Shown here: in pieces, positions 9,001 to 62,204 of the stretch | How the letters are laid out: every line of letters starts with the position of its first letter | How positions within the stretch are numbered: position 1 is the stretch's first letter | NCBI GenBank assembly: GCA_031213475.1 | Contig: JARUPZ010000034.1 | Span: 1,012,501 to 1,076,500, forward strand | Direction: 5' to 3' | DNA: 64,000 nt | DNA from: Nereocystis luetkeana | Taxonomy: Eukaryota > Sar > Phaeophyceae > Laminariales > Laminariaceae | Notes under the pieces: generated by a model | What the model saw: the letters and a program-made list of their open reading frames with translations, nothing else | Told to the model about the DNA's origin: nothing | Databases searched by the model: none | Program-made: the position numbers and the translations under genes

Positions 9001-10174
9001 ATTATCTCGCTGTCGAGCCGCAAATATCTAGAAGCCGCAACTCCAGCCATTTTCAAGAGGCAGAAGCAGCTTCATTGCATCGTGTAGATAAAGCAGCTCA
9101 AGGTGTAGATGTGAAGAAACGTCCCAAGAGTTGAAAAAAAAAGATAGGAATGCGCGAAAAATGCTGGTGTTGAACTCCCGAGTGTGAAAAATATGCGGAC
9201 TCCGCCTGAAATGGTTGTGTTGGTCGCCACAATGATGGTGACGATGAGGGCCAATTTTTAAGCTCTCTCCGGCAAAACACTTCGTAAAATATCTTGACGT
9301 AGGGCTAACGCGCAACAGTTATACCCTCCCCGCCCAACTCGCGCGCTCACAGAAACGTATTTCCCCGTTCCCCCTGCCATGCAGCCCCAGCGAAAACACC
9401 TCGTTTTTTTTGTCGCGCATTGGCTGGTTAATTGGTTTCAGCACTCCCATAGACCGTCGGTTTCATTGCTTCGACTTATCTCGCCCGTTCCTACTAATAC
9501 ATACCTGGTACAACCTCCCGCAAACAAAAAAAAAAGGTCCCTCTCTCAGCGTCAAGGCCAAATTTAGAAGAAGGGTTAAGGTTTCAGTGGGAGGTTCTTG
9601 ACGGCGCCGGTGGCGTGATCCCCTGGTATATAGCAGGGTATTTGCTGCCTCTGTCGCTTTGAGCAGTGCCCCCCAACGGGAACGTCCCAGGGGCTCTCAT
9701 TCCCGCAGATCAAAACCAGGGGCATCTCAAGGCGGTCGCTCGTGTCCTCGAACCTGCTATTCACACTTGTCGGAGGACAACATGAGAAACCGCATGCATG
9801 CCCGAACAAGCAACACCATAATATTTACAGGGGGAGCACAGCGACGCGGGGGGGAATCTGAGTGTTTTGCTCGTGCGTACGAAAATATTTGGCCAATCAG
9901 ATGAATGTGAGTCCCGTGGTCGGCCATACGTGCGCCTGTGTGGCGTGAAAAACAGCAGCAGCAGTACCGAAGGAATACCTCCCCGAGCTTGACGAGGGTT
10001 GCCGATCGATATATTGGGATGTGTCCGAGGAGGAGCCTCTCCGTCTCTATGCCTCTGAGCGCCGATGCATGCTGCAATAGGGGATAGTGGGTGCATTGAC
10101 TATTATTTTCTGGGGCTCCTTCGTGTTTGTGTATGTTCCTCTCTCCGGGGGTTTATGCCTCCAAATACCTATTT

Positions 10175-10299
10175 ATTACGGGGGACCATAGTTAATAGGA
10201 CCTATGGTATAAATAAAAACCGAACAGGTATACATTTAGCCATTTTTACTACTATTAATAACATTGTTTGGTCCTATTAACTATGGCCCCCCGCAATAG
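10175..10299 (+). mobile_element. Family A MITE
   Basis: A full-length copy from 'ttacgggggaccatagttaa' to 'ctatggccccccgcaatag', lying in the region of the pheophytinase pseudogene between exons 1' and 6'. The interior is slightly longer than in other copies because of an extra TATTAATA stretch. Confidence 0.9.
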
Positions 10300-11150
10300 T
10301 TTATGCCACGTGGTATGTTTTTTTAGGCCAATTTATTGTGCTAAAAAACCTGCCGGCAGATGAAATCATATCCAAGCCCCACCCCAGATTTTACCACCGA
10401 CAATCCTACCACACCAGAGATACTTGTAGTAGTAGCCCATCCACGTTGCGTGATAGCAGTGCCATATAGAGTGTCTCCGCCAACGCATATCGCTCAGAGC
10501 ACGCCCCTCCCCCTCTCTTGACGTAATACGAGCTGGTTCCAAAGACAGCCAGAAATTTGCGGCTTCGCACGTTGGCACTTTCTTTCGTCATCATTCCTGC
10601 TGTATATACTCCTGTCTGCTGTCAAAAACACCTGAACAGCCTACCAACCTAAGGATCCCTTCTCCCAGATTGTTAAAGGTCCTCCTGCTGTCTGTAGTTT
10701 ATACAGTACCTGGTAGTTTCCTTTTTTGTGTGTGTTTGCGGTGGGCGACTGATCGATGCTTGTCTGCTCTGAGAGGAATACGGTTGGTGCGATGTTCTGA
10801 TGTTCTGATAAATCTATAAAGACGTCGATTTTGAATTTTGAAGAAAACCTCAACAAGATCGTAGGAGATCATGAAGGCGAGGAAAGAACCACACACCAGC
10901 TGAGCGCGTCCTTCCTTCGCCTCTTCGCTCGAACACCTAAGATACTCGGCAGGTGTCGGCGTACCTTCAGGTCCTGGCTGGCTGTAGAGCGATAGACGAG
11001 GACGGGCTTCGACTATAAATAGAGATTTGGTGGTGCGACAAGGTGCGAGGAGGATATTTATTTTGATAATTTTTTCGTGCAACGAGCCTTTGGTCGAACA
11101 TGGTGGAGTTTGAAAGGCGTGGGTGCAGAGTCAACAGCGGTAGAGGCCGC

Positions 11151-11388
11151 CGAGGACAGCAACAACCCACGTTCGTACTACTGTTGATGCAACGATGGAC
11201 TGTGGCGGACGGCTGGGCCGCTATATATGCTTCACCGTCATATTCTGGCTGCTGCTGTGTCGTGTTCGCTGGTGTTGCGGCCTATCCTCAATCCCCTATT
11301 CCCTATGCTGTATGCCATCTTGAAAAAAATGGAAACCCTTTTCTCCAAGTTCGACCCTTCAAGCGAGCATGTTCCCGAGAGCAAAAGC
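11151..11388. promoter_or_regulatory. Spacer between head-to-head gene copies; candidate promoter region
   Basis: This short interval separates the start of the intact plus-strand pheophytinase gene from the start of its inverted relic. It is the axis of the duplication. Any promoter of the intact gene, and formerly of the relic, must lie at least partly here. I cannot identify core promoter elements with confidence. A 'ctatatatgc' at 11221-11230 is the only TATA-like string. Confidence 0.35.
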
Positions 11389-14300
11389 ATGGTGGTGAAG
11401 CACAGCAGTCCATCCCGTCCGTGGAAGTCCACGGCTGCATCGGCCGTAGTATGCACGTATGCTGCTGTCATTGTCGGCTGCTGCTACTGCTGCTGTCTCT
11501 CCACGCACGCCTTTCAAACTCCACCATGTTCAACAAACACCCTCAAACGAGGCTCGTTGCACCCAAAATCTCCTCCTGGTACCACCATCGCCAGTCGAAG
11601 CCCGTCCTCCTCCGTCGCTCTACAGCCCTCCGGGACCCCTGAGGCTACGCCGACGTCAGCTGGGGACATTAGGCGTTCGACAGAAGAAAGTCAGGAAGGA
11701 TCCGCTCCGGTATGTGGTTCGTGCTCGCCTTCATGATCTCCCCGATCTTGTTGCGGTTTTTCAAAATCGATATAAAAGGCTCCACCACCATCACCAAATG
11801 CCGTACGAGTCGTCGTATTTTGATTTCTGCACGCACGAGAGTAAGCAAGCAGCTCCCCCGGAACGACTCCAGGGTCAACAGTCAACAGGGTCAACAGGAG
11901 CAGATATCGAAGGATGTCCAGTGGCCCTGTGTGCATAGACTACACAGTGTATTCCTCTCTCATTGTGGAGATACATTTCTGATTTCTGTTTCACGTCGTA
12001 CTTTCGCAACAGGTATGAAGGTCCCCTGCAACATTAACATTTACGTACATGTCACTAACCGGACAGATCATCTACAGATCATCTACAGATCATTCCCGCT
12101 TCATCATCTACTGCTGTAGATCTATCAGGGCAGATACACTCCTGATCTGCGTGATATAGCTCATGTTGGAGAGGATAACCTGCAAGATCTATATATACAA
12201 CACTTTTCTCTAGTTGGGCCTGTACGTTTCTTGAGTTGGTCGGTACTGCCGCTCAGATCGTGCACAGCACCTCGTTTCGGGAGTTTAGGATCTGTAGATG
12301 ATCTATGATACAGGTAGGCAGATAGATCAGATAGATCGTGATCTATCTGTCCGATGTGTGCAACGTTTCCTTGCAACAAACCTCGCTCGTCGCTACACGT
12401 ACGCAAGTGTCTCGTGCCTCGTACAGGACCCCTCCGGCCAATTTCTGTTTTATACGTCGGATCAGACCCAACCCGACCCCAACACCAACATCATCAGCCC
12501 TAAGCCTCTCCTTAATCCCAATCGTTTTGGTGTATTTTTTCCAGAACAAAACGGCCTGTCGAAAGGCCAGCCTCGACCAACCAGGCAGTGATATTGCACG
12601 AATTTTCTCTGCAAGATGGTGTTGCAGTTACGGCAGTACTGTACCTCTCTTCGATACCAGGTGGTGGCCATCATATCACTCTATTTTACTGCATGTTGTA
12701 CTAGAAACGTGGGTTGCAGTTATTCACTGATGTGCCCACCTTTGGGGATACAGCACTTGGAATGAGGCCGGGATGAGTCTTGCAGTACGTGGTATTAATA
12801 GATACTCTCGTACCTGGTATATCGAGGCTAATAGGTTCTGAGTTCCACGGCGGTCATACTTTGTCCCCCCCAAGCAAGGCTGTGGTCTCCCGTGCTCGAG
12901 ACGGTTACAGTGCAATAGGACGCCTAAAAAAGAAGCAGGAAAACCGGTACATTTTTATTCATTTCTTATTCTGAGAATGGGCGCTTCCTGCACTAACTTC
13001 ACTTTACAGACTCCCCAAGTTCTTATTTTCCTCTGTAAATATCAGTATGTTTTTCTTTTTTGCTCGTTTTCTTTGTGGGTTGAGTACTGAAATGTAGCCG
13101 CTGACTGTCTTTGCTAAATCGTCCTATGTGGCCCTGACACTACCATCCTGGGAGGTCGCGGATCTGTCAACTTCCAAACCATACATCCCGTAGCGCATGC
13201 GTTCGATTTATCGACGGACAGAGTGAGTGGTTTAATGTGAAGAACACACATACGCATCTTGCGGAAGATGAGCTTCGACGGAATTTTCGATCTCCCTCAA
13301 AGCTGAGGTGTTTTTTTTTATCTTTTATACGTACCTGGTATTCAAATATGGGCTACATGCACGGTGTTGCCATCTTGGCCAGTTCTTCAAGCCGGTAGCA
13401 CGAATCAAGACCCGAACCATACAAATCCCTCGCGACAAGCAGACTTGTGCGCAAGAGCCGTGTATGTCTCACCCAGCACACAATATCCACCGTAGAGTTT
13501 GCAGATCAGATAACCCAGCAATATTTATATCACACTCTGGCTGTCAATGTAAGGACCGTTTAAACGTTACTATGAATGCCAAACGATCCTTATACTACGG
13601 CCCCAATATTTTTGTCCAGGGTGGCATCTACTGTATATGTAGATGTGTGTATATATATGTCTGCCGCGAAATGTCTACATCATGAAAAGGGGATACGATC
13701 TGTCCAATATGTGAACATTTCTAAAGGGATTAGCTCGCCGACCGATTGTTTTTCGAACCGATCCAGGAGAGCGGAATGTGGCAGTGGCGGAATGGGTGGG
13801 AGGTCCACTTCGAGCACGCGCGTCGGGAGGGGGCACCGCCTCTTCTCCTCCTCCCGGGGTTCGGGGTTGGAACGTTTCACTTCAGGAGGAACATGCAAGA
13901 GGTTTGAAGTCACAGTTCATTGATAGCGACTATGATACGCACAGCCGTTTCATTTTATATAGCGGTGCCGTTCGGTTGTGCTCCGCACGTGCTTTTATGG
14001 CGGTGTTGATGTTGGTGGTGGTCGTGGTGGTGTTGTTGGTGGTGTTGGTGATGGTACCGGTGTTGTCGCTGTCGTTGCCTGTTCGTTGTTGGTGTTGCTT
14101 GTGGTTGTGCTGTTGGTGGTGGTTTTGTGGTGGTGTTGTTGATGTTGACGGTGGTGCTGCTGCTGCTGTTGTTGTTGGTGTTGCTGCTGCTGCTACTGCT
14201 GCTGATGATGATGATATTGTTGTTGGTGGTGCTGGTGATAGGAATCGCAGCCGACCTCGACGGGCGCGCGCTCTTTTCATTGTTGGCGCGCAGCTGTCCA

Positions 14301-17300: not shown

Positions 17301-20300
17301 ACAGTTGTTTTTTTCTGTCGGCGCCTTGATCCTTCCCCCCCCACTAAGGCCATTCATTAGATCGAATACATCTCTCCTATCGAGTACACCCCCCCCCCCC
17401 CCCCCCGCCCTCTGCCACATCATGTGCAACTCCTTTTATTCTGCTCTTTCGGACGTTCTACTGATCACACGGGAAAAACTACGGCATGTACTCCTCGTAT
17501 TTTATATACCCATGCCACCGGGAATTATGAAGACGCGATCGGAGAGGAGGTGGTGTCGGAGATAATCGCGGCTACGGATCGAGGTCCCAGCAACCACGAC
17601 TACGGCGTGGGGGGGCACGAGGCGTTCACCAGCATTGTCTTCGCTCCCAAGGTGTGGAAACCCTCGCCTACAGCCCGTCGTTGACGCGCCGCAAGGTCCG
17701 GAGGCATCACCTAAAGTTTTTTTTCTGTGTATTGATACCATTTTCCTCTTTGCTGTGTATTGGTTGTACCACTGCTTTCATCTGTGTACAGTATTGATGC
17801 CAACACCTACAGTTTCTGCGTATTGATATGTGGTATGTAGCAATGATTTCGTTTCTGTTTTTCTTTTCATACAAGAATCAACTTTTTTCTCATTACTTTG
17901 TTTGGGGGGGGAGGGGTGATATCTACCTCGAACTCTAACCCCAACCGATTCCCCTGACCCTCGATACTGGTTACACCTCGAGGAGCGCCGCCAGAGGCCG
18001 TCACCGAAGGTGTTTTTGTTTGCTAGTATGTGTCAGTCACAGTTGTCGGAAAACATGTGGGGGAGCTACCGTAGCTAGCAATATATCTACTCAAGTATAG
18101 ATCAGGGTTAAATATGCGAGAAAAACAAATGACACGGGGTCGGGTACTCAAAAACCACGTGAAAACGAAGGTTCAAACCTAAAACCAAGTGGAAATAAAC
18201 GGCCAAAGAGTTGCTACCTGGTGTTTTCTCGATTGGTCCAGTGACCACAGCCCTCCGGTTTTGTTTCTTGTTCTGACTTCTAGGGTGTTTGGTTCGGTTG
18301 CTTCTTCTCTTATTTTCTTCATGTACGCCCAAACAAAACTGCAAAGGTATCCATGAAACTACTGGTACCACCTTGCACAGCTCGGCATACCGACGTATAT
18401 TTTTCGGGCATGCTCTCTGTCGCTCAGCCGTAGCCCTCGATTGGGTTTCCGCCCGCCGACAGGTTTCGATGAAGTTCGAGGACATGATCGACCGCCTTGA
18501 GATGCCGCTGGTTTTGATTTACGGGAAGGAGGACCCCTGGGTCGTTCCGCTTTGGGGTCACCGAATAAAGCGACAGAGGCCGGAGACCCTCTACTACCAG
18601 GTGATCGAGAGTGGAGTTCAACTCAGGCGTTTCTCGCACAATTCGACCGTCATATTTTTCTACTTTGGCTCTTTCTTGGGGGCGTATATACGTATAATAG
18701 CTCCACATAATTCCGGCACAATCATTGCGGTGGGAAAATGTGAAGATCCTTCCTCGCCCCCTTCCCCCCCCACCCCCACCCCCTCCTGACCCCCTTCCCT
18801 CCCTGGTCATGCTCATGAAATTTTCATCTCATCTCACCTCCCCTGTTATTCGCTTCGGCGAGAATATGCGAAGATTCCCCCCACCCCCCCCTCCCCCTTC
18901 CCCCTCCTTGGTGCTTCCTTTCGTCCTCGCCTTCCCTCCCTCATGATCATGTGACGATTGCACCCACCCCTCTTTGCACCCCCCTCCCCCTTCATCGCTG
19001 AGGTGAAAGCAAGCGAAAATTATTCCCCTACCCCCCCTACTTCCCGCCTCACTACCTCCCCACCGTCCCTTCCTTGCGCTCATGTCATGATTACCCCCCC
19101 GGTCCCGTTTCCCCCTCTCTATTTTCATATTTTCCCTGGTGTGCCTTTGGTACGTGTCTAACTTTCTATCGCGATAGGTGTCCCCCTCAGGGCATAGCCC
19201 CCACCACGAAACGCCCAACACGGTGAACTCCCTTCTTGCTGGTTGGTTGGAGTACGCGAGAAGTGGAGGGGCGCCGCCGCTGTCGAAGGACGGACAAATT
19301 CTACAGATGGCTGTAAGATACGAACACTATCCCCCCCCCCCGACTTCATCCTTTCACCACCGCTGATATCATCCAACACTATTGCCAAACAGTTTCCCCC
19401 TAAAATAACCAAGGCTTTTCAAGGGTCGGGTGGAACTTTCCGGGCCAGGTAGGGTCGGATCGGGTCGGGAAGGGGTGACCCGATCCGATCCGTAAGAAAT
19501 TGAACATCTCCTGACCCAACCCGACCCAACCCGGCCCGTGAGATTTCAAAATGTTCCTGACCCGAACCCCAGGACGGGTCATGACCCGTAAGGAACCCTG
19601 ATTACCTGGTATATCGTGATAACTTTGTTTCGACCTCAACCGTTCGGGAGGCGTATGGTACTATATGGCATTTTTTATTATTTAGTTCGCTAAACCGACG
19701 AGGGCTACGGCATGAAAAGCGCGCAGCAGTACAGCAGTAGTGCAGGTGTCGTCACCATGCTCCTTGTGGGGGGTACAGTTCCTTACACCGCAGTACGGAC
19801 CCCCCACCCCCCCCTACCTACCCCAGCAGCTCGGGCTGCTTCACACCGCTCTGTCCTAATATACAAGGACAGTTTGTGTATTATTAGTTAGTATAAACGG
19901 CCCTTACAAAACAGGACAGAATGGTATGGCCGGTGTTACACTATAATCGAGGTGTTTTGTTTCGGCAGCGTGTCACCCCATCGGACAGATCACCTAACAG
20001 ATAATTCCCAACTCACGGTCTAGATCCTTCAGGGTAGATAGGTTCCTGATCTGTAGGATCCGGCTCATTTCCTGCTGTTGTTGCCGGGTGGGAGCCGTAT
20101 AGTTCGCATGATTTACCACGTGTTCCCTGGGTTGGATGTGGATCTATTCAGATCCTGCACAACGTCTCAGAGGTGGAGGTAAGCTTAAGGGAAAGAACTA
20201 TTACGGGGGACCATAGTTAACAGGACCTATGGTACACATAAAAACCTATATGTTTAACCATTTTTACTAACAATATTTGGTCCTGTTAACTATGGCCCCC

Positions 20301-20778: not shown

Positions 20779-22118
20779 TAGATCGTTGCGGTGCATCTTA
20801 ATATTTTATTTTGTGTTTGTGTGGTTTTGTATTCCTGTATTTTTACCGGTTTTACCGGGGGTTTTTCTCGTTTTGCGGTTGTTTTTGGCGTGGGCGATTG
20901 TTGTTTGGATTGTTATGGCTCCAGTCACGGAATCATGGATTGGTACGGGTTGAGCTTCGGACGATACTATTTTGTTTCCCGCCAGTATGCTTGGGTAAGT
21001 CCTGTGTTTTTTTTTCTTGTGAAAATCGAACTCAAGCTCTCACGAAGGATTCTGAATGCATGATGCATGAATATTGAACTGGTATTGGTGTGCTATCGGT
21101 GATGATGAGTCATTTTTTTTTCGCGAATGCGGTGTTGGGAAGCTATGGTGTGGAGGCATACAACAGAAGAAGCCAGGCGCCAGTTTTTATCGAGGGAGTG
21201 TTGACGTGCGTCGACTCTGTGAGCGGATATGGCCTCAATGCTTATATTTGTACCTGGTAAGCGTTTTTATGTAGCAATACTATTCTACTATTATAGCCAT
21301 CGCCGTGCTACCACGATCAATCACCGCCGGTTTTTTTGCATGGGGGCGTTGATGGTGTGTCCACTCTACCTATGATAGGAGGAAAGTATCAATGCGCATA
21401 CAAATGATAGATGAATATTGGACAATATGCTGCACGGACTGATCTGGACTGCTCCTGGTATCGTTTTTACTGTAATGTGATTGTGTTACAACAATGGCTT
21501 CTCTATACCAGGTAGTGCCTATATGCGCCATCCAACAATACCGGCACTATAGCGGCAAGCAGCACTATAGTGATCATCACACTATCAAACTGGTGAATAT
21601 GAGCTGTTCCAACCGATTTCACGGGCACCATAGTAATAGCGGGCAGCCGGCACTATTCAACCAGCACTATATGAGGGACCACTACCGTACTTCTTTCTTT
21701 TTTTTGTTATCTTCCTTGGAGATCTGGGTAAAAAAAGCTTACGCCCAACACACTTTCTTATTTGTGTACCGGTTCTAGTCCATCTGTAGGACACAGACTT
21801 TAACATGACACTCCGCCAGTGTACATGCCATGAACTTGCCGGGCCTCTTTGGTCGACCCCTTTTAGGTTCGATCAAGATGGAGGTAGGGATAGCCACCCA
21901 GGAATCAACAGCTCATTTTGCTCTGTCTTTTACCTGGGTAGTGCGAGATTTGCCTGCGCCTGTTCCAATTTTTATTTCTGCATTTACTCTCCTATGACTC
22001 TCCAGTGAAGGGACCCTGCTAGAAGAGTAGCGGCGATGGGTCTCCACCTGCCGTCAGAAAAAAGGCGCACTCGCTAAATAAACCCTTTTGCGTACTTATT
22101 ATCCTACTGTTATATGGA
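20779..22118. other. No recognisable gene; ACTATAG-type scattered repeats
   Basis: Downstream of PPH the open frames (20744-21274) are hydrophobic but T-rich and lack splice context. At 21520-21690 there are many 'gcactatag', 'cagcactata' and 'ggcactat' strings resembling the minisatellites at 23640-23830 and 37012-37300. Confidence 0.5.
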
Positions 22119-22232: not shown

Positions 22233-22390
22233 TTACAGAAACGCTTGCGCGTGCACACCTAAAAAAACACATCTCCCTGGTTCCCCAGGTATTGAAACGA
22301 AGCGGGTAGGTCAGCGTACGGATGTACCAGGTATACGGTTCCGACGCCCCAAAGACCCCGCCGTTCAAAGGGGGGGAGAGTGTTATAAGG

Positions 22391-22456: not shown

Positions 22457-22465
22457 TACCTGGTA

Positions 22466-24168
22466 TGTGAGAAAAAACGCACCGTCATTAAGGCAGCATC
22501 CTGCGCGGACATGCATTAAATTCTGGTAAGTTTTCATGTGTTTTACGGAAGACGGTGACTAAGCGGTGTTCAATGGCAACCCTGTCACCACAACCAACGC
22601 GTAGTTGTTGCCCATGGGCGAACGGTAATCATTCAGAAGAAACGCCAGGGGATATTGTTGTATATTTCGTTTGGTGAATGGCACGATAACCACTTCTCCT
22701 ATTTTTTCGTCGCTTGGGTCGGCTTGAGTGTAATTTGTGCTGTGGATTTGCCTCGGCTTGCTGGGGGGCTTGCTATTGAAGAACGATCATCTGGCGTATA
22801 CATATGTTCCACGCGGCAGTAGTATCCAATCCGTTAATATCCCGTGGACTAGATAAGAGTACAAACATACAGGAGGTCTTGACTGTCGGCAGAAGAGCAG
22901 AAAAGCGAGCGGTCTGTCTTCTTTCTGGGATGCGACGAATTTGGATGCTGTTGTTGGACGGACTATATCAATAGGCAGGCATGGCTGATATTATGTGGTT
23001 GATGGGACAGGGGCGATGCGGCTGGAACTGCACCCCTCACGCTCGTCATGGCTTGAGTGTGTTCGCTGCATACGAAGTACTTACTGTTGAGAGGTGGCGC
23101 TGCAGCAGTGTACGATATATATGACGAGTAAACGAGTATTTACGCATTTTTTACCGACTATGATATTATAGTGCGATGATTACGTGAGATTGAGGATAGA
23201 GCTTGCATGGTCTACAGAAGAAATACTGTACATTACAAGGAGTATTGTTTTCCGAGCAATCTCAAATCATATATACGCAGTAGGCCTATCATTAGTTAGT
23301 GGCATTCCCGAATGCTGCTTTGAGTTGATTCCGTGACTTCAAACCCCACGGTCGCGTGGATATATTTATTTATTTTAAATAAGAAAATTGATTCGAATCA
23401 CCTGCTGAGAGCGCGTGGCGTGGATAGGCGGAATTCGACGCGAGTCGCCGAGGGAAGAAAGGGCTGAAGTCTTCTCGCGATAAAAATGCCTTCCAAGGCA
23501 CGAATCGTAGTGGGAGGGGGGAGGAGGGCCTGCTATTACTCAATGATCCCGGATCTGAATTACGACTATATTGAATATTAATATTATAGGACCGAGAGAG
23601 AAGAAGAACGAAGATAATGAACGGAAAAATATAAATCGTGGTGCCCTCTATAATGCCGGTTGAGTATAGTGCCGGCTGCCCGCTATACTTGCATTGTAGT
23701 GCCTGTGAAAGCGCTTGGCACTGATTGAATCAACTATTAATAGTAGTCTGGCAGTGTGCGGAGTATAGTGCCGGTTGCCCGTACAGTGCCGGTTTTGTTG
23801 GCTGGCGCATACCGGCAGGCACAATATACAGAGGGACTATTAATTCTATTATCACTACTATTATTAATAATAATACAATCAAAACTGCGTTGTGCGTATG
23901 TATATAGCATACATACGCCCGTTGGGATCCATCTACGTACCGCCGCATGAATCATGTGATGATGATGATGTGATGGTGATCATGATCGATCGGGTGAAAC
24001 AAACTGCGGAGCAACTCGATGCCCTAAAAATAACATTTGAATAGTACCTGGTACGTAGTTCCACGCGGCGGGCAGGTTAACTAACTAACTACAACCTACA
24101 GAGCAATAAGCAACCAATACTGCCTCGCTTCTAGCGATACCCACGTACCAGGACCAAGGTACATATAT
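22466..24168. other. No recognisable gene; TATAGTGCCGG minisatellite
   Basis: At 23640-23830 'tatagtgccggttgcc'-like units recur five or six times, interrupted by unrelated sequence. The rest is unique, moderately AT-rich sequence without coding features. Confidence 0.45.
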
Positions 24169-25345: not shown

Positions 25346-26105
25346 GCATGGCAGGACGGTAGGATCGTAATTCTCTCTCGGAAGCCGTGTCTCTCGTACC
25401 GAACCAACCAGACACCCGCCACGAGTGCCTCGTACCTCATACCTGGTGCCTCATCCCGGCACCGGTACCTTTTCCCGAGCATACATACGCACAACAAGCA
25501 AAGGTGGCCCGCCCAGCCTGGCTTAGACTGTGGCGTTACCTGGCCCAGCCTGGCCGTCCGTTCGTTAGTTTTCGGTTTTTCTGTGCCTGGTAAAGTTTGA
25601 ATGTGTAGTTTTCGAGACGAGATTGTTCTGGCCCGTGTTGGCTTGGCATTTAGTCGTAGTTGGTTCGATCGGGTATCCCCCGTGAGGTCCGTACGGCAGG
25701 GTGGCTCAGCGGCGCCTGCTATCGATTCGACAGTTCAACGTTTTACTCTTGGGGATACGCCGATCGATTGATTTGGCATGATGATGGTATCATACGTTCC
25801 AGCTGGCATGTGTATGTTGTGTGTGGTGTATGTGCCCTCGTAGACAGAACATTTCTGAAATTTGAAAAGTAGGAAGAGGGTCATCGCATGTTGATTCGAA
25901 GTGTGTGTTGTTTGAAGCACTGGTCGGTACGTGCAATGCGCAGAGAGAGCCGTGTCGGGATTCGAGATAGATTTCGTCTATTTGCTACCTGGTACTACAG
26001 TATTTTCTGCGTGTACTCCGCACGTGCATACTGCCTGTACACACACCCACAACCAGTTTTCTATGTGAGCAATAAAGTTCGGTATATATTCTACAACACC
26101 GCACC
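25346..26105. other. No recognisable gene
   Basis: Short frames only. A tRNA-like string at about 25690-25740 lacks proper A/B box spacing. Confidence 0.45.
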
Positions 26106-26975: not shown

Positions 26976-27990
26976 AGTGTACGCTCGTGTAACATGTTCA
27001 GCAGCAAGCAGCAGCACATCTATCGGGCAAACAACTGCAGTACTACAACATTGTTACAGTATTAATACGAGTGTAGTATTAGCAGCGAAGGGTATAGCAT
27101 AGCAGTGGTACTGTAGTAGTCTGGTCCTCCAGTAATCTACTGGCACAGCAACACACCAAGTGCATGTTATACGTGCAACAACACAGACAGACAGACATCC
27201 GCAATCAACCACCGGTGACAGCAATACTGATATACTCACATATTTACCAGGTATGTATGTGCAGCAGCAAATAACAAGCAGCAGCAAGCAGAGAGGAGAT
27301 ACAATGATGCACCAGATAACGGTTGTGCTCGTTTTACGTATAATTATGTAGTCTACGTGTATGTGCAAGGATCATACCGGTCAATGAGGATCAAGTAAGT
27401 ATACAAGTATACGTGCGGTGTATCTGGTACAAAAAGCAAAACAGTTTTCTCCCGCGTAAAAAAGCTTTTCTGCGTTCTTTGTATTATTTGGAAGTAAATG
27501 CGGTTGTTCATACGTACTGCTACCTGTTGCATTATAATAAAATCAACATGAAATAAACCCTACCAGGTATTTAAAAGTATGCAGTCAACCAGGGGCACCT
27601 TATACCACGCCATGTCCAAAAGGTCACTGCGGGTAATATAACGACTGCTGCACAACCCTCCTATGATTAATATTAATAATGCGCGTTTCCGGTATATTGC
27701 AACGTCATAACTGGAAATAAGTAGGGAAAAAATGGAATAAAATCAATCACGGGGTGAAGATCAACCATTTTTTTGTGAGGATTCGAATCAACCATGGGAT
27801 ACAATCAATCACGGAGTATTGTCGACCGTATGGTTTGTAGTTGTCCCACCCAAGCTTGAGAGTGCATCACCGGGGCATCGTTCGCTGCTACTATCACAAA
27901 CTTTACAGTGTACAAATATCAACAACACTACGCACTACTGCTGCCGTTGTTGTTCTGCCTAATGCTATGCTACTACTACTGCAGTAATAC
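26976..27990. other. No recognisable gene
   Basis: AT-leaning sequence with CAG/CTA-rich short motifs and two TACC(A/T)GGTA copies. Nothing coding. Confidence 0.45.
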
Positions 27991-28099
27991 TATTACGGGG
28001 GGCCATAGTTAACAGGACCTATGGTATACTTAAAAACCTATATGTTTAACCATTTTTACTAACAATATTTGGTCCTGTTAACTATGGCCCCCCGTAATA
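27991..28099 (+). mobile_element. Family A MITE, full length
   Basis: One of the cleanest copies, from 'attacggggggccatag' to 'ctatggccccccgtaat', flanked by TA on both sides. Its 3' half is included in the 599-bp tandem duplication, so a half copy reappears at 28648-28698. Confidence 0.92.
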
Positions 28100-29246
28100 C
28101 TACCTGGTATTAAATAGTATTAGTATTACTACACCACTATTATTGTGGTTGTTGACGGCAATGTTTTATGCTCTGTTGTTGACGGCATGCCTTTAGTCCT
28201 GCTAGCAATAACAAGGCAGATGGTTCACCTGACTAACCTACCTGCTCATGCCTTTTTTGTTTTTGGCCCTCTCATCGGCAACCGATCCAAAAAAGCTACC
28301 GCAGTGTTGGAACCGGTACAAGAGAGTATTCACCCATTAGCTTGTTCGCTCTGGAAATCATTCCCAGCACACCCTCACCCCTCGTCCTGACCCCTTACGC
28401 CCTCCACCCCGCCCCATTTTAACCCTTGCCTCTCGCTCAATCCCAGCTCTCACCCCCCCCCCTCCCCCCGAGTCCCTGGTATATATAGGTTGGGTTGGCG
28501 TCGGTTGGCGGCGACGCTGTAAAACACGCCTCTCACTGCGTGAGCTAGACAGCCAGGGTATATATATATATACCTGGTATATAAATATATCGGTTACCAC
28601 TGCTGGCGGTCGAGTTAGATCATTTTTGTGCGGGGAGAACCTTTACTACCATTTTTACTAACAATATTTGGTCCTGTTAACTATGGCCCCCCGTAATACT
28701 ACCTGGTATTAAATAGTATTAGTATTACTACACCACTATTATTGTGGTTGTTGACGGCAATGTTTTATGCTCTGTTGTTGACGGCATGCCTTTAGTCCTG
28801 CTAGCAATAACAAGGCAGATGGTTCACCTGACTAACCTACCTGCTCATGCCTTTTTTGTTTTTGGCCCTCTCATCGGCAACCGATCCAAAAAAGCTACCG
28901 CAGTGTTGGAACCGGTACAAGAGAGTATTCACCCATTAGCTTGTTCGCTCTGGAAATCATTCCCAGCACACCCTCACCCCTCGTCCTGACCCCTTACGCC
29001 CTCCACCCCGCCCCATTTTAACCCTTGCCTCTCGCTCAATCCCAGCTCTCACCCCCCCCCCTCCCCCCGAGTCCCTGGTATATATAGGTTGGGTTGGCGT
29101 CGGTTGGCGGCGACGCTGTAAAACACGCCTCTCACTGCGTGAGCTAGACAGCCAGGGTATATATATATATACCTGGTATATAAATATATCGGTTACCACT
29201 GCTGGCGGTCGAGTTAGATCATTTTTGTGCGGGGAGAACCTTTACT
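28049..29246 (+). repeat. Perfect 599-bp tandem duplication
   Basis: 28049-28647 and 28648-29246 read identically by eye, including a TA microsatellite and a C run. The junction cuts a family A MITE in half, with only the three bases ACC shared at the breakpoint. It contains duplicated 81-aa and 80-aa frames on the two strands, neither of which looks like a gene. Confidence 0.9.
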
Positions 29247-32900: not shown

Positions 32901-35900
32901 ATATCACGGGGGACCATAGTTAACAGGACCTATGGTATACATAAAAACCTGTATGTTTAACCATTTTTGCTAACAATTTTTGGTCCTGTTAAGTATGGCC
33001 CCCCGTAATAGGAACCAGACCACAAGGAAGAAACCCCGAAAAAAAAAATGATTCTTCCCAGTTTTTTCGCAAACGCCGCAATATTGAATCTAAACGATAT
33101 TCACAATTGGGGGCAGGGTGATAATCTGACTAGCGAAAGCAGTGAGTGAGAGGGGTTGGAGTGGTTAGGAGTAGCGTGCGCTCGACACGTGCGGGTGATT
33201 CCTATCATGTACCCTGCATCTGGTATGCCAGTAACATATTCTAGTATGTTCTAATACGAGCCTTAGATGCCTGGCCCCTTGTATCATACCAGGTAGGTAC
33301 CAGGTACAAGGTGTGTGTTGATTAGAGTACGCTCTGCCAATGCGGGCGATTTCTATCATTTTAGTTCAGAGGTTCACCGTAGACCTTACGGTATCCCCCG
33401 TTATCTATGTCACATATTTCGAGTAGAATATTAATTTAAGATGTTTTGTACATAGCCTTCTAGTGGATAAATGTATACCTGGTACAGCCTCGACGATTTT
33501 CCCCGTTTTTCATACTGTATCCTACTCCGTACACGTAAATAATGCTGTAATACATACCTCCAGTTTGCTAAACTTTAGCCTATATGTTCATCATGCTGTA
33601 CAGTTGCAGCCTCTACGTCATTTCCTATATGTTACCCTAGATGTAAATTCATTCCCTTCCGAAATCCCGAAATCCCGCTGTAAATGTCAGCGTACTATTT
33701 CTCGGTATTAATAGTGCCGTACGAGCCTTTACGCCAACCCCGTTTCCATACTTTATCCTACTGTTCTGCGTTCAGTTACGATTGCAGTGCTTGTAGTCTA
33801 TACGGCATTCTCTGTTTTCCATGCTGCATCCTACCGTGTACGCGAAGTATGGTAAAACAATCTTGGTGGGTGGTATCGCAAAACTTGAAGAACAGCGATC
33901 GGGAGGGACCGCGAGGGTGTGGCATCAACCAGGAATGGTATTAAACCGGACCATAGTAAATAGGACCAAATGTTGTTAGTAAAAATGGGAAAATATACAG
34001 GTTTTTGTGTGTACCGTAGGTCCTATTAACTATGATCCCCCCGTAATAGTTACCGCAATTCAGGGCTGTGACGTACCCGTAATTACCGATTTTAGCTGGA
34101 AAGTGAAAAGCATTGCCGAGCCCGTTACCGTTACCTGAAAAACCTCAAGGATTTTTAAGGCGGGGGAGTTCATCCATACCATCCCCGTTCAAGGAAAATC
34201 ATCGAAACCCCTATCGAACACCCAAGAGCCTCTGTTGTGTGTCACCTGCGCTAGTCAGTCTCGCTACGAGAGAACTAGAAACACACAATACTAACGGCGT
34301 TTCTGGCACGGAAGTGGTGTGCGATTTTTCAGTGTCTAATAAAAAAAAAACACGTGAATTGAGCTTTTTGAGTGAAAAAAACGTACGTTGTACCGTATTT
34401 TTCGAAATTATTTGGTTTCAGTGTGGAATCGACTTGTAGGGTCTAGCTTTACTGAATAGTGACCGTACTCAGCCAGTTCTTCGAATATTTTGCGCAAACT
34501 CTTGCTACAGACATGCCTTGGAGTACCTGTCGTTCGTTCCGCAAAACGAATAGGCCACGGAAACACCTGGTTATTATTGACCTTTTTTGAGGTTGTTGGC
34601 CGGGACCCGACTTTTCCGCTATATAGCGCCATCCCTAAACCCTTGACAGCAAGAAAACGGGCTTCGCCACCCCTTTCCGCTGTTTATTGCAGGCAGTACC
34701 ATACCTGGTACTAAATATGTGACAGTCGAGTAGCTTTGGAGTCGTGGCGGGCCAAATTTTGGGGCATCTTGATTGAACCAGTCTGTAGAGCTATTCGGGT
34801 TCCAATAACCTAGAAAAGGCGTAAAAATGACGCGTTTATTTATTTTATGAGCTCCCTCCTATGCTGCCTTTCCTTCCGGTGCCGAAGCAACGGCAGTGCC
34901 GGTACTCCGATAGCTATAACCTTCTCCACTGCCCCCCGCCCTTGTTCATAAAAAACACGCCCCCGGTGACAAAAAGAGCACAAGTCCAATAAAACATGAC
35001 ATTTATCACCCGGGTGTGGTCGGATACCACCCCACCGCAGGAAACCATCTCGGGTTACAGGAAAAGCAAAACCCTAAATAATTACCACCCGGATGTTTTC
35101 TGAGACCAGATACGGTACTCCGATAGCCGCACTACCCCCCCTCGCCGCCATCATTTCCCGCTCACAAGTGCCTAAGAAGGGCGATGTGAAAAATCATGTT
35201 TTTTTGTCATAGAACTTCCCCCCCTCCCCCCCTATTTTGTATAGGTTGGGTCGGCGTCGGTTGGCAACGACACTGTATAACATGCCGTTCACTACGCGAG
35301 CTAGACAACCAGAGTGCCGTTTTTTGTTTTTTTGGCGGTCGCCCAAAGCTGGTTGTCGAGTTCGATAATTTGTGCGAGGTAAAGAACCTTTACTCCACAC
35401 AAGGGAGTTGATCGTATCACGTAGTGTTCAAGGCAAGGCACCCACATAGTACTCCCATTGCTGTCTCTGGAAGTGCCTACACCGGAAATTAAATTACCTC
35501 AGTAACGCTGTCATCCCTATGCAAGTCCGCCTCACAAGCAGTTCTTAGTAGGATGCTGCTCACCCTTCATGCGACTCGCCAGACACTTTACGGCGCGTCG
35601 CGCTTGGTGCAAGCAATGTCTGCCTGGTCGGTTAAAACCCGACGTGCTCCGTTCCGGCATTGTAGGGATGCGAGGGTCTATGGTCATACGACTACGGCCA
35701 TGCATGACATCGAGTACATCTCTCCTATCGAGTGCCCCCCCCTCCCCCCCCCCTATGCTCCGTCTCGAATAGCATGCGTGGCGGTCAAACCACTAACGGC
35801 AAGCAACAAATGAATGCGTCCCCTCTCTCCTACTTCTGATACCCTATCCACGATAAATGTAGGGGCAGCCAAATCGCCAAACTCTATTTTACCTGGTAAC

Positions 35901-37573
35901 AACAGCTAAAAAAGTCAGCAGTGTCCGTCCCTCCCCCCCCCCTCCCCCCGCCGTTCCACCATCAAGGCCTGCTCACCAGCGTCAAACCCCGAGGAAAAAG
36001 GTGGACCACTCTGACCGAAAATAACCCCCCAGTGGCGCGTACTTACCCTGCAGCGGTAGCACCTAACTTTTCTGAGGCTCCTCACTCGATTATAGTATAG
36101 GAGCTCTATACCTCACCCCAGGACTAATTTTGAGAAAAAAAGCTAATATTTACGCAGCATCCCGGTGAATAATCCGGAAGTCTATGCTGGGTGCTGGTAC
36201 CCGCATTACATGCCAAATAACACACACCCTCAGACGCTTAATAATGCTGGTTTTCTCGGCAACACGGGAGTGCAAACACCGAGTGACGCGTTTAGGGAAT
36301 GATGTCGACGAGAAATTCCCAACACCCGCCCTCTCGTCGGGTGCGCCCCTTAAGGCATGTTTGGAGAAAATCCGTTCGGATTTTTTTCCTAGGGGGTGTG
36401 TTGTTTTGTCACCTGGGTATTATACGATATATCACGAATAATATTGTAAAACGCTGATGGGTTGTGTGTTAAGGCATGTTTGGAGAAAATCGGTTCGGAT
36501 TTTTTTCGTAGGGGGTGTGTTGTTTTGTCACCTGGGTATTATACGATATATCACGAATAATATTGTAAAACGCTGATGGGTTGTGGAGTCCTGCCACGTC
36601 CTAAATATTTTTGCCTAAAAGTGCTATCCCAATATTATTATTATTTCTCTTGCCATCCGACAATGTGCAGCACGATCTTGGATCACTCATAACTTCCCCG
36701 AAAGAAGAAAACCTCGGACACAAAAGGAAACCCATGCACCAAGTCTACCTCCCTTCCGTGCCAACTTTCAGCTTGTCTACTCTATTTGCTGTATTTGCTC
36801 CTTCCTTCTCATTACGTTCTATCCTTAAATCCTAAACTGCATCCAAGCTCCATCCCCACGCCATCGGTGTGGGTCTGTCGTCCCTCCCTCCCCTGTTCCT
36901 TCTTCCTTCTTGGCAGTCCCTGAGCTGACGCTTGAACCTCGACACCCTCCTCGAAATGGCGACCTGAGTGGTCACCGAGACGAATCAATCGTAGCACAAC
37001 TCTACAAGAGCCACTATTATGCCAGTAGGCCTTATAATGGCAATAGGCACCATGATGGTAGTAGGCACTATAATGGTAATATACATTATTATGTCAATAG
37101 CCACTATAATGTCAATATACCAGGTACACGATAATGTCAATAGGCACTATATTGTCAATAGGTGCCACAATGTCAACTGACACTATAATACCAACAGGCA
37201 CTATAATGTCAACAGGCCCTGCAATGTCAGCAGGCACTACCATGGTATTAGGCACTACCATGGCCTTAGGCACTATAATGGCAATATCAAGCGGTGGATT
37301 TACCGGCAATACTGGTTGGTACCGGTAGCAATTTGTTCGACCGCCTAAACTATGATACCTGGTACTAGAGAGGGGTGCAGTAGGTACAACAGTAGTTGCA
37401 GTAGGTACAGCGGTAGTTGCAGTGGGTACAGCAGTGGGGGCGGTGCCCCTTTTCAGGTTTTGATGAAGCCGGAGATCCTTGATCCTATCGTAGAAAATGT
37501 AAAGCCGGAGATCCGCGCCGTCCGCCCTGAAATCCCCGAAACAGCGGATCTCCGAAGAGTACGCCTTCTCTGA
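29939..37573 (+). CDS. Acidic low-complexity protein, four exons, 5' end missing
   Basis: I do not recognise this protein. Proposed exons: 29939-30725, 31235-31521, 32447-32620 and 37457-37573, all with GT-AG borders and matching phases (phase 1 at the first junction, 0 at the others), giving 454 aa. The first exon follows 'cactaatcaaacccagcag', a plausible branch point and acceptor, and has no early ATG, so an upstream exon is missing. It encodes a Ser-Asp/Glu acidic stretch, a run of Glu, and long Gly/Glu/Lys low complexity. Exon 2 has two FQDV repeats (MTFQDVQE, RAFQDVLE) and LLEYVQRTQP. Exon 3 reads VFPNGVYIFRPDMEMPRVDK. Exon 4 has three KPEI/RPEI-type repeats after a strong 'ccccttttcag' acceptor and ends at TGA. 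The composition suggests a nuclear or disordered protein, but that is inference. Joining exon 3 to exon 4 across 4.8 kb of repeats is the weakest step. Confidence 0.5.
30895..31210 (+). repeat. ATATC/ATCAT-type satellite in intron
   Basis: Irregular repeats of 'atatcat', 'atcatacc' and 'acaatatc' fill most of the intron between exons 1 and 2 of the acidic-protein gene. Strongly AT-rich against GC-rich flanking exons. Confidence 0.85.
32147..32345 (+). repeat. Family D right module plus C-rich tract
   Basis: 'gctccgtctcgaaaggga' to 'actgaatgagcacgcc' is followed by about 120 bases of CCCTCCC low complexity, just upstream of exon 3 of the acidic-protein gene. Confidence 0.75.
32904..33010 (+). 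mobile_element. Family A MITE in intron
   Basis: Complete copy, starting 'atcacgggggaccatag' and ending 'gtatggccccccgtaata'. Confidence 0.9.
33011..33938. other. Intron sequence with degenerate duplications
   Basis: A segment ending 'gcgggtgattcctatcat' (33170-33215) recurs as 'gcgggcgatttctatcat' (33325-33362). From 33480 to 33850 strings such as 'tcctactccgtacacg' and 'tcctaccgtgtacgcg' recur irregularly. Confidence 0.5.
33939..34049 (-). mobile_element. Family A MITE, reverse orientation
   Basis: Starts 'attaaaccggaccatagtaa' and ends 'ctatgatccccccgtaatag'. More diverged than the copies at 28.0 and 32.9 kb. Confidence 0.85.
34050..35204. other. Intron/intergenic, nothing recognised
   Basis: No exon-like stretch with splice sites and no repeat-family member was seen. 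Confidence 0.4.
35205..35816 (+). repeat. Dispersed repeat plus complete family D element
   Basis: 35205-35640 parallels 28440-29542, and 35638-35816 holds the family D left module, a short C spacer and the right module. The two loci together define the composite element. This copy has shorter spacers. Confidence 0.8.
36351..36586 (+). repeat. 119-bp tandem duplication
   Basis: 36351-36469 and 36470-36586 differ at about two positions ('ccgttcgg'/'cggttcgg' and 'cctaggg'/'cgtaggg'). It lies in the last intron of the acidic-protein gene. Confidence 0.92.
37012..37300 (+). repeat. CACTATAATG minisatellite
   Basis: About a dozen imperfect units of roughly 15-21 bp around 'gcactataatgtcaata', ending in 'ggcactaccatgg' variants. 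Just upstream of the proposed last exon of the acidic-protein gene. Confidence 0.85.
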
Positions 37574-46960: not shown

Positions 46961-47282
46961 TCGCCCCTTGCTCGATCAATCAATACTCTACGCCAAGCGT
47001 CCCAAAAGGTAATGATACGAAAAAGCCAAAACAAAAACAGCAAAACACGAGCCTCGCTACACACCAAAAAAAAAACGCAAACACATAAGTACCAGGTACC
47101 AGGTATAAAAAAATATAGCCAGGGATACCAGGTATCGAGAAAAGGAAATCACGTGAAAAAACAAAAAAAAACACACGCACACACAATACACATACACACC
47201 CTGCAATTGAAGGTAATCCGATTGTATCCACGCTACGGACAAGCCGTGGGCATAGGTGTCTACGACTTAACGCCTCGGGCAG
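46961..47282. other. Unique sequence with three TACCAGGTA copies
   Basis: A-rich. Two copies of the 9-mer overlap at 47090-47105 by sharing TA, and another lies at 47126. Confidence 0.5.
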
Positions 47283-50760: not shown

Positions 50761-50784
50761 CTAAGATATACGCAACGAAAGTCG

Positions 50785-55850: not shown

Positions 55851-56010
55851 CGACAGATCATCTACGGTTCTAATCTACAGATCATCTGCAGATCATTCTC
55901 ACTTCAAGATATAGATATTCCGGGGCTGGTGGATAGATATACCTGGTACGTGGTTTGTATGATCTACCTCGTGTTGACGGGTGGGAACAATCTTCTACCA
56001 GGGCCATCGC
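55851..56010 (+). repeat. Family C repeat, partial
   Basis: 'accgacagatcatctacggt', 'acagatcatctgcagatcat', 'tgtatgatctacctcgtg', 'gacgggtgggaacaa'. A TACCTGGTA sits inside at 55940. Confidence 0.7.
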
Positions 56011-58614: not shown

Positions 58615-58739
58615 TCACGGGGGATCATAGTACATAAGACGAAATATTTTGTTGGTAAAAAAATGCAGAAATAAACTGTTTTGTGTCTACCGCAGGTCCT
58701 ATTTACTACCAGGTACCAGGTATGGTCCTCCGTAATATT
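58615..58739 (-). mobile_element. Family A MITE carrying a CCAGGTACCAGGTA insertion
   Basis: Starts 'tatcacgggggatcatagta' and ends 'tggtcctccgtaatatt'. Where other copies read 'ctatttactatgg', this one reads 'ctatttacta', the 14-bp insert, then 'tgg'. The extra 14 bases are exactly two CCAGGTA units after a TA. Confidence 0.9.
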
Positions 58740-58740
58740 A

Positions 58741-59200
58741 TTTAAATAGCATCTACGTATCTCATACCTGGTACGTAAAAGTAGCTCATTTTTTCGGGTG
58801 GGAGCCGCATAATGTGCATAATCGCAATTTTGTCTCCCCTATTTCAGAAAATAAAGAATTATCGTGCTACATTTCGAGGGGCTTCTAAAAGGGTTACTGC
58901 CGTAACAACCTTCCAGATTGTGTACCCTGGGTACGCTCGAAATATGGTCGGTGAAGTCGCCTTGCACTGATGAATTGAAACCAGTGTGTGTGGCACTGAT
59001 GCCGGTGGGCTGGCCTGGCACATACCGGGCTTAAAGCGGAACCAACTGCTGTTGCACAGGCATTGTCCTGGGTTGGATCTGCACTACTATGCAGCTCTCG
59101 CTAAACATCTCGCTACGGCAGGAGATAACTACAGCAGTACATGATCTATCTGTAGGTCATCTATAGTACCGGTACATAGATAGATAGATCATTATCTGCC
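58741..59200 (+). repeat. Family C repeat, expanded
   Basis: 'agtagctcattttttcgggt', 'gggagccgcataatgtgcat', then about 180 bp of unrelated sequence, then 'tgtcctgggttggatctgca' and 'gatctatctgtaggtcatc'. The gap suggests an insertion into the repeat at about 58840-59060. Confidence 0.65.
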
Positions 59201-59275
59201 CGAGCTGCACCAGGTACCAATCACACCCTCGATGGTATGGTATACACCTGATATATGCCCGGTCTAATGGTAGCA

Positions 59276-59732: not shown

Positions 59733-60045
59733 CGTGGTAGCATGACATCAAATGATATCCGGTGCCGTGATACGCGCGGACACACATATATTGAGCAAAA
59801 ACGTACTCCTGCTGTGATGATGTGATGAACCTATGCCTACCTGGTATGAAATACCAGGTATCGTCGAAATGGCATCCTATTTTATATCCCTCCAGGACGA
59901 CCTATAAGAAACGCTTGGTACTCATATTGATGTCCAAACGCTTCTTATATTTCCGTCCAGAACGAGTCAAACGTGAGTGGAAGAAAAAAAAACGAAGTTA
60001 TTAATACTATTAATAGTAGTTTGGACTGGAACTGCAAACATCTTT

Positions 60046-60123
60046 TATAACAGCAGTCCCGTTTTGAGGACATATCATTCAAATTACAAGTAGTTTGTCC
60101 CCGGACAACACTGCAGTCTTATT
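60046..60123. mobile_element. Family B hairpin MITE, degraded
   Basis: Left arm 'cagcagtcccgttttgagga' is clear. The right arm 'gtttgtccccggacaacact' has decayed. Confidence 0.8.
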
Positions 60124-60251
60124 GACAGGGTTTTAATCGGCAAATAAATTTCAATTTCAATTTCAATTTTTGGAGGACGATGTCCAGGAATAATGGCTTG
60201 AACAGTACCTGGTACAGGTTTTGGGCGGAGCGAGATAGCGATGAACCAACA

Positions 60252-60275
60252 GCAGCAGCAGCAGCAGCAGCAGCT
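60252..60275 (+). repeat. (CAG)8 array
   Basis: Short pure CAG run with no exon context. Confidence 0.9.
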
Positions 60276-62204
60276 CTAAGCTCTACGTACTGGGGTTCGT
60301 GCTAAAGGGACCAGGAATTGTGGCTAGCGTAGGCAGAACCTGTCAGAAACCATGTACAAGAGGGTCCAGGTTCCAGGTCTTCCATAATTCTTCGTGCTGT
60401 ACGTACTGAGGTGCTGCCGCTGTTTCGCTCAGTCAGCGAGGCAAATAGGCTAGGACCGCGGTTTGACCCCTTGACTGACCGATACTGAACACTTATATCA
60501 GTATGAAAAGTCAAAATAGGTCCATGACGCGTCAACAACAGGCCCGTCTACTACTACTCTGTACGAAGTACCTTTGGTCAGAGGCTCCGGGGTAATTTCG
60601 TATTTTCCTCTCACCTACGGATTGTGTACGACAAGTCTCCCCAGCTTTGTGTGCCTTGCCCACTCGCAGCTAGCCTTGCCGGCTGTATAGCACCAGACGC
60701 TACAGAGCTCACGCGCAGCAACGCAGTACAGATAGAGCAGAATCACGGTGCCAGATCGACAAGTCAAGGTGAGCTCAGCGATGATAAACACTGATTTATT
60801 GCTTCGGTTGGTTCTGTCGAGCAACACAAGAAAACTGACAACTTCTACGTACCAAAAAAAAACGAAGATCCCGTTCAAGAAGCGCCAACTTTCATTGGAA
60901 ACCTTCTGGACGTTTTGGCGGATCACGGATCGCAGATCGTTCACACACATATCATTCCTACAAGGCGTACGTACAAGACATACAACACGATATCAGTATC
61001 AGTGCGTTGTTTTGCACACCTAAGATGGAGCACGGCTTGACCTTTCCCCCTCCCCTCGGCGGTCACGGGGTCGAGAACCCCATCTCACGTCATCGTTGCT
61101 TTTGTTGTGCGCGCGATTTTGGCGCGATTGCTCCTGGTGTACTATTTTCTCGTTCCTGTTAGAGTAGGGATGATGAGATCAAGGTCGGATAATTACATCA
61201 TCAATCAGCATATTATATCAGAGCCGCTCAAATGGGCCAGTATACCTGTAGCAAACAGCTGTAATCTACAGTAGTAGGGGCGTACAGTAGGGGCGTACAG
61301 TAGTATACCGCGGAGATAACCCCCCCCCCTGTGCCCCTGTGTGATGAATTTAATCACCTACCAGGTATATATACTTTTGCCACGTACCAGGTACAAAACA
61401 AAAACGGCGGTTTTGGGAACATGACGTCGAGATCTTTCCGTATAATAGGCACACACACACGTTGCTCGTCGTTTTCACTCTCTTTCTCCTCGAAACCCTC
61501 TCCTCCCCGTTGTCATGAAAACGTGTTTTCAAATTCATCCGAGCGAGAATAGGGGTCACCTTTTTTTGCGTGTCGCACGGACGGATGTATGTATGATGTT
61601 GTATGATACGCGGCGGTGTGGGTGTAGTATAAAAACGGCCGCCTGAACACGTCTGCACACAACAGCACGCAGGTGGTCTCGGTTGACGGCTGTGCACGAC
61701 CTTTCTTTGCCGGTGATGCCTTTTCTCGTCTGCGCAAACCACGACTGACTACCGTCTCACTGGCTTTTGAGCTGATGATGTGGCGTTCGGTTCGACACCA
61801 CTATACACTATACTACTATTATTATATACTACTATTAATACTGACACTACGACGTACTGACACCACGACTATACTACTACTGCAGTCAGCAGAACTCCAA
61901 TTTTACGGCGATTTGTTTCCACATTTATTTGATAGAATCTACAAGGATGGTGGGATGCGATATGACGGACAAATAAATGTGGCCCTATGTACGTGCGTAC
62001 CTGGTATGTACCCCAAGGTATGTATATATATCTCATCGGATCAGTGTATATAATGTATTAAAACAGTTGCCGTTGAGGATATAATGTTGTGCACTAAGAG
62101 CTACGATATAATACCTATACCAGGGTATTCGGTACTGCAGCAGCAGCCGCCGCTTGCTGTAGATCGCACTGATTCAACGCGAGTGGATGGTACTGTAACT
62201 CCAC
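60276..62204. other. No recognisable gene
   Basis: Contains four TACC(A/T)GGTA copies, a small 'ggggcgtacagta' duplication (61277-61304) and short CTA-rich simple sequence (61800-61880). The frames at 60748-61023 and 61350-61742 show no motifs or splice borders. Confidence 0.4.

Follow-up and report, generated by a model that had tools for sequence, protein, structure and literature searches.

A nine-base-pair palindrome found throughout a brown algal genome as the probable excision footprint of a TA-targeting transposon

Why does one short palindrome recur so often, in unrelated surroundings, within a single stretch of a brown algal genome? The stretch is 64 kb of Nereocystis luetkeana DNA (contig JARUPZ010000034.1, positions 1,012,501 to 1,076,500; hereafter the window), and the palindrome is TACCWGGTA, in which W is A or T. 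An earlier note, made from the letters alone, had offered three explanations: the footprint of a transposon that targets TA and leaves CCWGG between duplicated TAs, a protein-binding or methylation motif, or a self-propagating micro-insertion. The first of these is strongly supported by a comparison of repeat copies with and without the motif and by two sister classes of scar, and we conclude that TACCWGGTA is very probably the excision footprint of a cut-and-paste transposon that targets TA.

The window contains 37 exact copies, the first at 9502 and the last at 62006, compared with a mean of 0.37 and a maximum of 3 in 100 dinucleotide shuffles; the centre on the plus strand is T in 22 copies and A in 15. 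When all 9-nt odd palindromes of the window were ranked, TACCNGGTA came first (38) and the runner-up, ATATNATAT, reached 11. A genome-wide count had been proposed as a check on the over-representation, and the result was not near expectation: in the whole 465,085,209-bp assembly TACCWGGTA occurred 182,395 times and the reversed pattern 1,744 times (∼105-fold). The same palindrome centred on S (C or G) occurred only 10,882 times (1,899 for its reversed control), so that the core is self-complementary save at its central position. The first 100 sites on the sequence designated C1 were spaced in a near-Poisson manner except for exact 7-bp tandems, the only strong clustering (8 observed versus 0.04 expected), and spacings of 8-30 bp were seen 4 times in the window versus 0.47 expected. 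Other features described in the earlier note were also borne out. Copies are absent between 37364 and 47090, where the note had placed a gap at 37.4-47.0 kb (a gap this long has a Poisson probability of 0.004, uncorrected for picking the longest gap), and doubles that overlap by a shared TA are present at 47090 and 58707. Nor do the copies belong to one repeat family, the flanks being unrelated apart from duplicated pairs, tandem or close neighbours that share a flank, and one 16-base match between sites 33298 and 59852. The duplicated pairs, 28101/28700 and 28571/29170, are copies within one 599-bp tandem duplication, and the window therefore holds at most 35 independent sites. This duplication occupies 28049-29246, with two scars in each copy. 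Scans of the window with Rfam (gathering threshold) and for tRNAs found nothing.

The most direct evidence came from repeat copies that differ at the site of the motif. The window and twenty 10-kb stretches made up the sample used for this comparison (280,831 bases), together with six short loci taken because the motif was present there. It contained 108 motifs, for 20 of which a paralogue could be aligned across the site. At 9 of these 20 testable sites the paralogue had a clean 7-bp gap, corresponding to CCWGG plus one TA at a TA, whereas among 1,079 control words of the form TA-N5-TA such a gap was found at 6 of 307 testable sites (Fisher p-value 7e-9). The motif thus consists of 7 bp cleanly inserted at a TA target, CCWGG and a duplicated TA, with TA on both sides. 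The remaining classes, which overlap, comprised 8 sites with the same motif in the copy and 13 with another alignment. Some of the six control positives resemble the motif or touch it, TACGAGGTA and TACCTGATA being one change from it and a third overlapping a motif site. The nine sites are not all independent, as four come from one array at locus L012; when related sites were merged, 6 of 14 groups (L003, the L012 array, L013, L016, L023 and L026) retained the clean gap (p-value 2e-6). In the empty copy for L016, TG stands where TA was expected. Paralogues shorter by 14 bp were found at two of the nine sites, L012 8820 and 8827. A looser search showed the same for the window double at 58707, which is a clean 14-bp insertion relative to at least two copies that read CTATGG without an insert (window 62834-62946 and L015; E-values 1e-5 and 4e-5); these two paralogues are below the threshold of the main comparison and stand outside the count of nine.

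From these observations we infer the offset of the cuts, the route of annealing and a parent element, as follows. A transposon would insert at TA and duplicate it; upon excision, cuts made in a staggered manner, a few bases in from each end, would leave, on both sides, a TA followed by a CCWG or CCWGG overhang. The overhangs would anneal except for a single central A:A or T:T mismatch, and filling, ligation, and repair or replication would then yield TA-CCAGG-TA or TA-CCTGG-TA. The CCWGG core could arise either from CCWGG overhangs or from CCWG overhangs annealed over three bases, a 4-nt overhang annealed in this way giving the same product with a 5-nt core. Resolution of one central mismatch to A or T would explain both the near-strict W and the otherwise exact palindrome. 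Excision events would accumulate over a long time, and existing scars would be reused as targets, so that doubles and triples build up. The S-centred excess over control amounts to 5.0% of the W-centred excess, and in the sample the excess over control is 105 for exact motifs and 74 for forms with one mismatch (∼0.08 changes per site). Because mutations have accumulated in them, the scars are inherited and of mixed age, and not only recent.

Doubles of 16 letters occurred 15,917 times genome-wide, compared with 2 for the control. Their centres were A then T in 4,522 and T then A in 1,856, giving 6,378 doubles with unlike centres and 9,539 with like centres. Unlike centres are not what plain duplication would give, and at one position in the L012 array different copies carry TA, TACCAGGTA or TACCAGGTACCTGGTA; serial reinsertion appears to account for most of the tandem motifs. 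If insertions were sequential, independent and guided by a target preference, like and unlike centres should be equally frequent; the like-centre doubles exceed the unlike by 3,161, about one fifth of all doubles, an excess that we infer to come from ordinary 7-bp duplication. Under sequential insertion a preference for A at position -3 predicts an excess of A-then-T doubles. In the flank matrix of 96 isolated sites A exceeded T at -3 by a factor of 1.54, and the observed ratio of A-then-T to T-then-A doubles was 2.44, in the same direction; since the centre asymmetry was seen before the prediction was worked out, this is a consistency check and not a blind test. Prokaryote contigs contained at least 118 stretches with doubles; in the 80 loci read, 78 of 99 doubles have the same centre, as would be usual for short tandem repeats. 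The triple motif, searched in IMG/VR as a test of a viral source, gave no match.

The flanks of the isolated sites share a symmetric signature: the seventh position outward from the TA was A or T in 162 of 192 flanks (background 52%; z 8.9), and T was scarce at position 1. Such a preference is what an integration complex would be expected to leave, although a binding site might have flanks of much the same appearance. Insertion favours existing scars. In addition, two elements with CAG ends, at L039:1102-1116 and at L033 (∼1216-1226), directly adjoin CCAGGTA, which gives the impression that scars already in place are attractive to further TA elements as well.

A scan of short gaps between repeat copies without bias toward any motif (205 gap positions) recovered TA-bounded inserts of 5 bp (TACTG 3, TACAG 2), 7 bp (TACCTGG 2, TACCAGG 2) and 6 bp (TATTAA 2). 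Clean empty paralogues were found for 6 of 16 testable TACWGTA sites, compared with 6 of 213 controls, and for 3 of 18 testable TATTAATA sites, compared with 11 of 761 (one of the three lies in a trinucleotide repeat). Genome-wide, TACWGTA occurred 162,074 times versus 54,742 for its control, and TATTAATA 93,112 times versus 10,689, part of the latter count being in simple repeats. For TATTAATA, the three states could be seen at homologous TAs of L012: one is empty, one holds a 105-bp miniature inverted-repeat transposable element (MITE) with TTACGG ends (8399-8505) and others hold TATTAATA (8790 and 8852). Its flanks, determined at 66 of 74 sites after 8 in simple repeats were dropped, prefer C, A and T at positions 1 to 3 (-1, -2 and -3), a preference similar to that beside 56 distinct ends of TTACGG elements. 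TATTAATA would be the product of two TTA overhangs joined over two bases. In the case of TACWGTA, elements with CAG ends at L031 and L033 (one end recognized in each) and at L039 and L040 would leave this scar. Because of these states, flanks and CAG-ended elements, we consider that an origin by excision is demonstrated for one sister class, TATTAATA, and supported for the second, TACWGTA, which is of the Sleeping Beauty type.

The larger TTACGG element was reached through PF03184 (DDE_1), which models the transposase group that includes Passer. It is 4,272 bp long, has ends of the form TA|TTACGG, and is present at L035:1730-6001 with further copies at L036, L037 and L038. The four copies are 99.5 to 99.98% identical in pairwise comparison except for one pair at 98.0%, whose alignment extends into flanking repeats; the element has been recently active. 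There are exceptions at the ends, the left end being TGACGG in one of the four copies and the right flank not being TA in two. The four copies hold no TACCWGGTA, a sample too small for a conclusion. MITEs of ∼105 bp with ends similar to those of this element are abundant. Another palindrome, TAGGWCCTA, was also enriched in the sample (window 4853-4921 among others); its flanks are strongly conserved, which points to an internal segment of the TTACGG MITEs.

The parent of TACCWGGTA itself was sought in several ways, and much of the result weighs against an excision footprint. The 118 half-sites in 282,054 bases (two double-counted) showed no recurrent continuation beyond duplicated loci among the matches listed (14 of 1,844 pairs and 40 of 91). 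A scan of the sample for TA-flanked inverted repeats revealed no element with CCWG(G) ends among the matches listed, nor did a second, filtered scan in 70 of 88 rows. The recognized ends of the DDE_1 loci start with CAG or TTACGG and not with CCWG(G), and the occupied state, a TA-flanked CCWG(G) element at a homologous site, was not seen for TACCWGGTA in 280.8 kb or in the eight DDE_1 loci with recognized ends. Unfavourable observations also come from the scars themselves: 11 of the 20 testable sites lack a clean empty copy; the core is 5 nt, compared with at most 4 nt in descriptions of Sleeping Beauty and Passer; and the target matrix gives scar TAs a weight only ∼2.7 times that of an average TA (a partly circular figure, as tandem flanks are included), a weight that looks insufficient to account for so many doubles.

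In the same search, large insertions at TA were scanned for by split alignment, and none among the matches listed was an element with CCWG(G) ends. Among DDE/D transposase families, PF13358 had no match in the genome at an E-value of 0.001 among 30 candidates, and PF01359 had two weak matches, neither over the cut-off. PF03184 had 46 matches at E-values up to 1, none linked to TACCWGGTA; 13 of these loci were read (L031-L043, two with the same sequence), and ends were recognized in eight (L031, L033 and L035-L040). No boundary was found at L042 and L043, which share an identical stretch of 4,857 bases. At L041:4061-4180, near a DDE_1 match, a tRNA-like sequence comes after a hairpin-like stretch. 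By a rough Poisson estimate, at most one recognizable copy in 280.8 kb would put the parent family below ∼8,000 copies versus 182,395 scars. The gap is far smaller for TTACGG, with ∼82,000 excess scars and maybe 46,000 elements (scaled from the 56 ends).

The best candidate parent was rejected. At L013:5457-6456 a 1-kb element has ends resembling TACCTGGTA, but six further copies, each known from one end, read CAGGGATGCG with unrelated flanks (among 173 candidates, a search with the element end gave 40 scored near-identical matches, one of them the element itself). The L013 copy lies within TACCTGGTA and is bounded by an 8-bp duplication, CCTGGTAC. From its end sequence and the length of the duplication it is probably an element of the hAT type that landed inside an existing scar.

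Could the motif have spread without any transposon? A self-propagating micro-insertion would require an enzyme that inserts CCWGG and TA at TA, perhaps by cleaving motifs already in place and then copying or ligating short oligonucleotides. The failure to find a parent element fits such a process, as do the preference for motif TAs seen in 15,917 tandems versus 2 and the exact 7-bp spacing as the sole strong clustering. Two sister scars exist, however, one with its transposon visible at homologous sites; the mismatch logic already accounts for W; and we know of no enzyme that inserts CCWGG and TA directly at TA. Autonomous self-propagation is not needed, even though scars are favoured targets, and we regard this explanation as unlikely. 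Also improbable, and rather more so, is programmed or somatic DNA elimination, in which long elements would be present at the TAs during some other life stage, or in some other lineage, and be removed before the stage that was sequenced. The 182,395 scars would then mark sites of longer DNA removed in development, the assembly would be a cleaned version, and the parents would be eliminated rather than rare. To our knowledge, no nuclear dimorphism has been described in brown algae. The abundance of scars with no resident elements seen would be explained, and in Paramecium germline inserts are known to be eliminated genome-wide (PMC3464196), but the mutations in the scars (a 5.0% S-centred excess and 74 one-mismatch forms for 105 exact) indicate that they are inherited, and ordinary TA transposons account for the sister scars.

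A functional palindromic site for a transcription factor, a chromatin protein or methylation (CCWGG being a site of the Dcm/EcoRII type), kept by selection, would agree with the palindrome and the symmetric flank preference. Symmetric flanks are possible for a binding site but insertions are not explained by it, which is why we disfavour it: the earlier suggestion of a protein-binding or methylation motif leaves the clean 7-bp presence or absence between copies (9/20 versus 6/307) unexplained. The number of copies, the near-random spacing of the first 100 apart from tandems, and a centre that is A or T and rarely C or G argue in the same direction, and this explanation is very improbable. Local duplication, replication slippage or chance composition probably does explain some doubles, as suggested by the 9,539 like-centre tandems among 15,917, or 3,161 over unlike. 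As a general account it is extremely improbable, given single motifs whose paralogue lacks CCWGG, the 6,378 unlike-centre doubles and the 105-fold excess over the reversed control.

How does an excision footprint of this form compare with known systems? The earlier note knew of no described nuclear element that matches. We likewise found no description of a TACCWGGTA or CCWGG scar in the literature searched (titles and abstract openings, among the matches listed), and the string TACCWGGTA itself was absent from the papers searched for it, but the logic is that of Sleeping Beauty, whose scar is the palindrome TAC(A/T)GTA with a central A/T, and TA is duplicated in both cases. Sleeping Beauty and its Tc1/mariner relatives are described as targeting and duplicating TA and cutting in a staggered manner inside the element tip, so that the scar repeats a 3-nt overhang (PMC7827188). 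Here, by contrast, the core is the 5-nt CCWGG, and scars far outnumber resident copies by rough estimate. Stowaway MITEs and plant mariner-like elements are reported to make a 2-bp target duplication and to leave footprints with element-end bases (PMC4561436); there the footprints are small insertions or deletions, whereas here one dominant scar is visible as a genome word. Passer, of the pogo superfamily, likewise duplicates TA, with reported footprints of 0 to 4 bp (PMC9976928) compared with 5 here. Among brown algae, Ectocarpus has TcMar elements that include the autonomous TcMar-2_Ec32 (4.4 kb) and a 217-bp MITE (PMC12477816), and the 4,272-bp TTACGG element with its abundant MITEs is similar by description; the main text of that paper makes no mention of footprint, MITE or palindrom. 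In Paramecium the likeness lies in the excision of inserts throughout the genome (PMC3464196). The difference is that a 5-nt core and two TAs remain here. Paramecium internal eliminated sequences have TA boundaries and are excised precisely to a single TA. Thus, excision footprints of TA transposons are known as a kind, and the 5-nt core, the number of scars and the disparity between the numbers of scars and of elements seem to be new.

Within the window, all scars were located by exact matches and carry no strand assignment (.). Single TACCTGGTA scars lie at 9502..9510, 10707..10715, 12811..12819, 13332..13340, 19603..19611, 21251..21259, 22457..22465, 24045..24053 and 25986..25994, and again at 33476..33484, 34702..34710, 35890..35898, 37356..37364, 55940..55948, 58765..58773, 59838..59846, 60206..60214 and 61998..62006. 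Four more belong to the 599-bp duplication: 28101..28109, which adjoins a TTACGG MITE, and 28571..28579 in copy 1, with 28700..28708 and 29170..29178 in copy 2 not independent of them, respectively. Single TACCAGGTA scars are found at 21506..21514, 22325..22333, 27245..27253, 27561..27569, 33287..33295, 33298..33306 (11 bp from the scar at 33287), 37118..37126 (within an 18-bp tandem array), 47126..47134, 59852..59860 (14 bp from the scar at 59838), 61359..61367 and 61385..61393. The double scar TACCAGGTACCAGGTA is present at 47090..47105 (exact matches at 47090 and 47097, with one TA common to both) and at 58707..58722 (exact matches at 58707 and 58714), where it occupies one TA of a dispersed repeat copy. 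An empty paralogue for the latter, at 62835..62943 (also without strand), is a ∼105-bp palindromic MITE of the TTACGG type with its flanking TAs, an element of the type to which we attribute the sister scar TATTAATA. In the assembly, of which the 20 contigs listed measure 10 to 22 Mb, the EsV-1-7 repeat is greatly expanded, with 150 scored matches of 1,710 candidates and none in 14 control genomes; this domain is reported to have proliferated in brown algae (PMC12477816), in keeping with a brown algal origin of the DNA.

If TACCWGGTA is indeed an excision footprint, a transposon lineage has moved in and out of this genome ∼180,000 times, with few or no resident copies found, and repeat annotation that counts elements would miss most of that activity. 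A palindromic scar of 5 nt would also suggest a cleavage offset outside the 3 nt of Sleeping Beauty and the 0-4 bp of Passer. Together with its two sister scars, the excess amounts to ∼370,000, or one per 1.3 kb (part of TATTAATA being in simple repeats). Scars of this kind can be counted, dated and linked to an element by target signature, as shown for TATTAATA, and could thereby be used to measure DNA-transposon traffic elsewhere.

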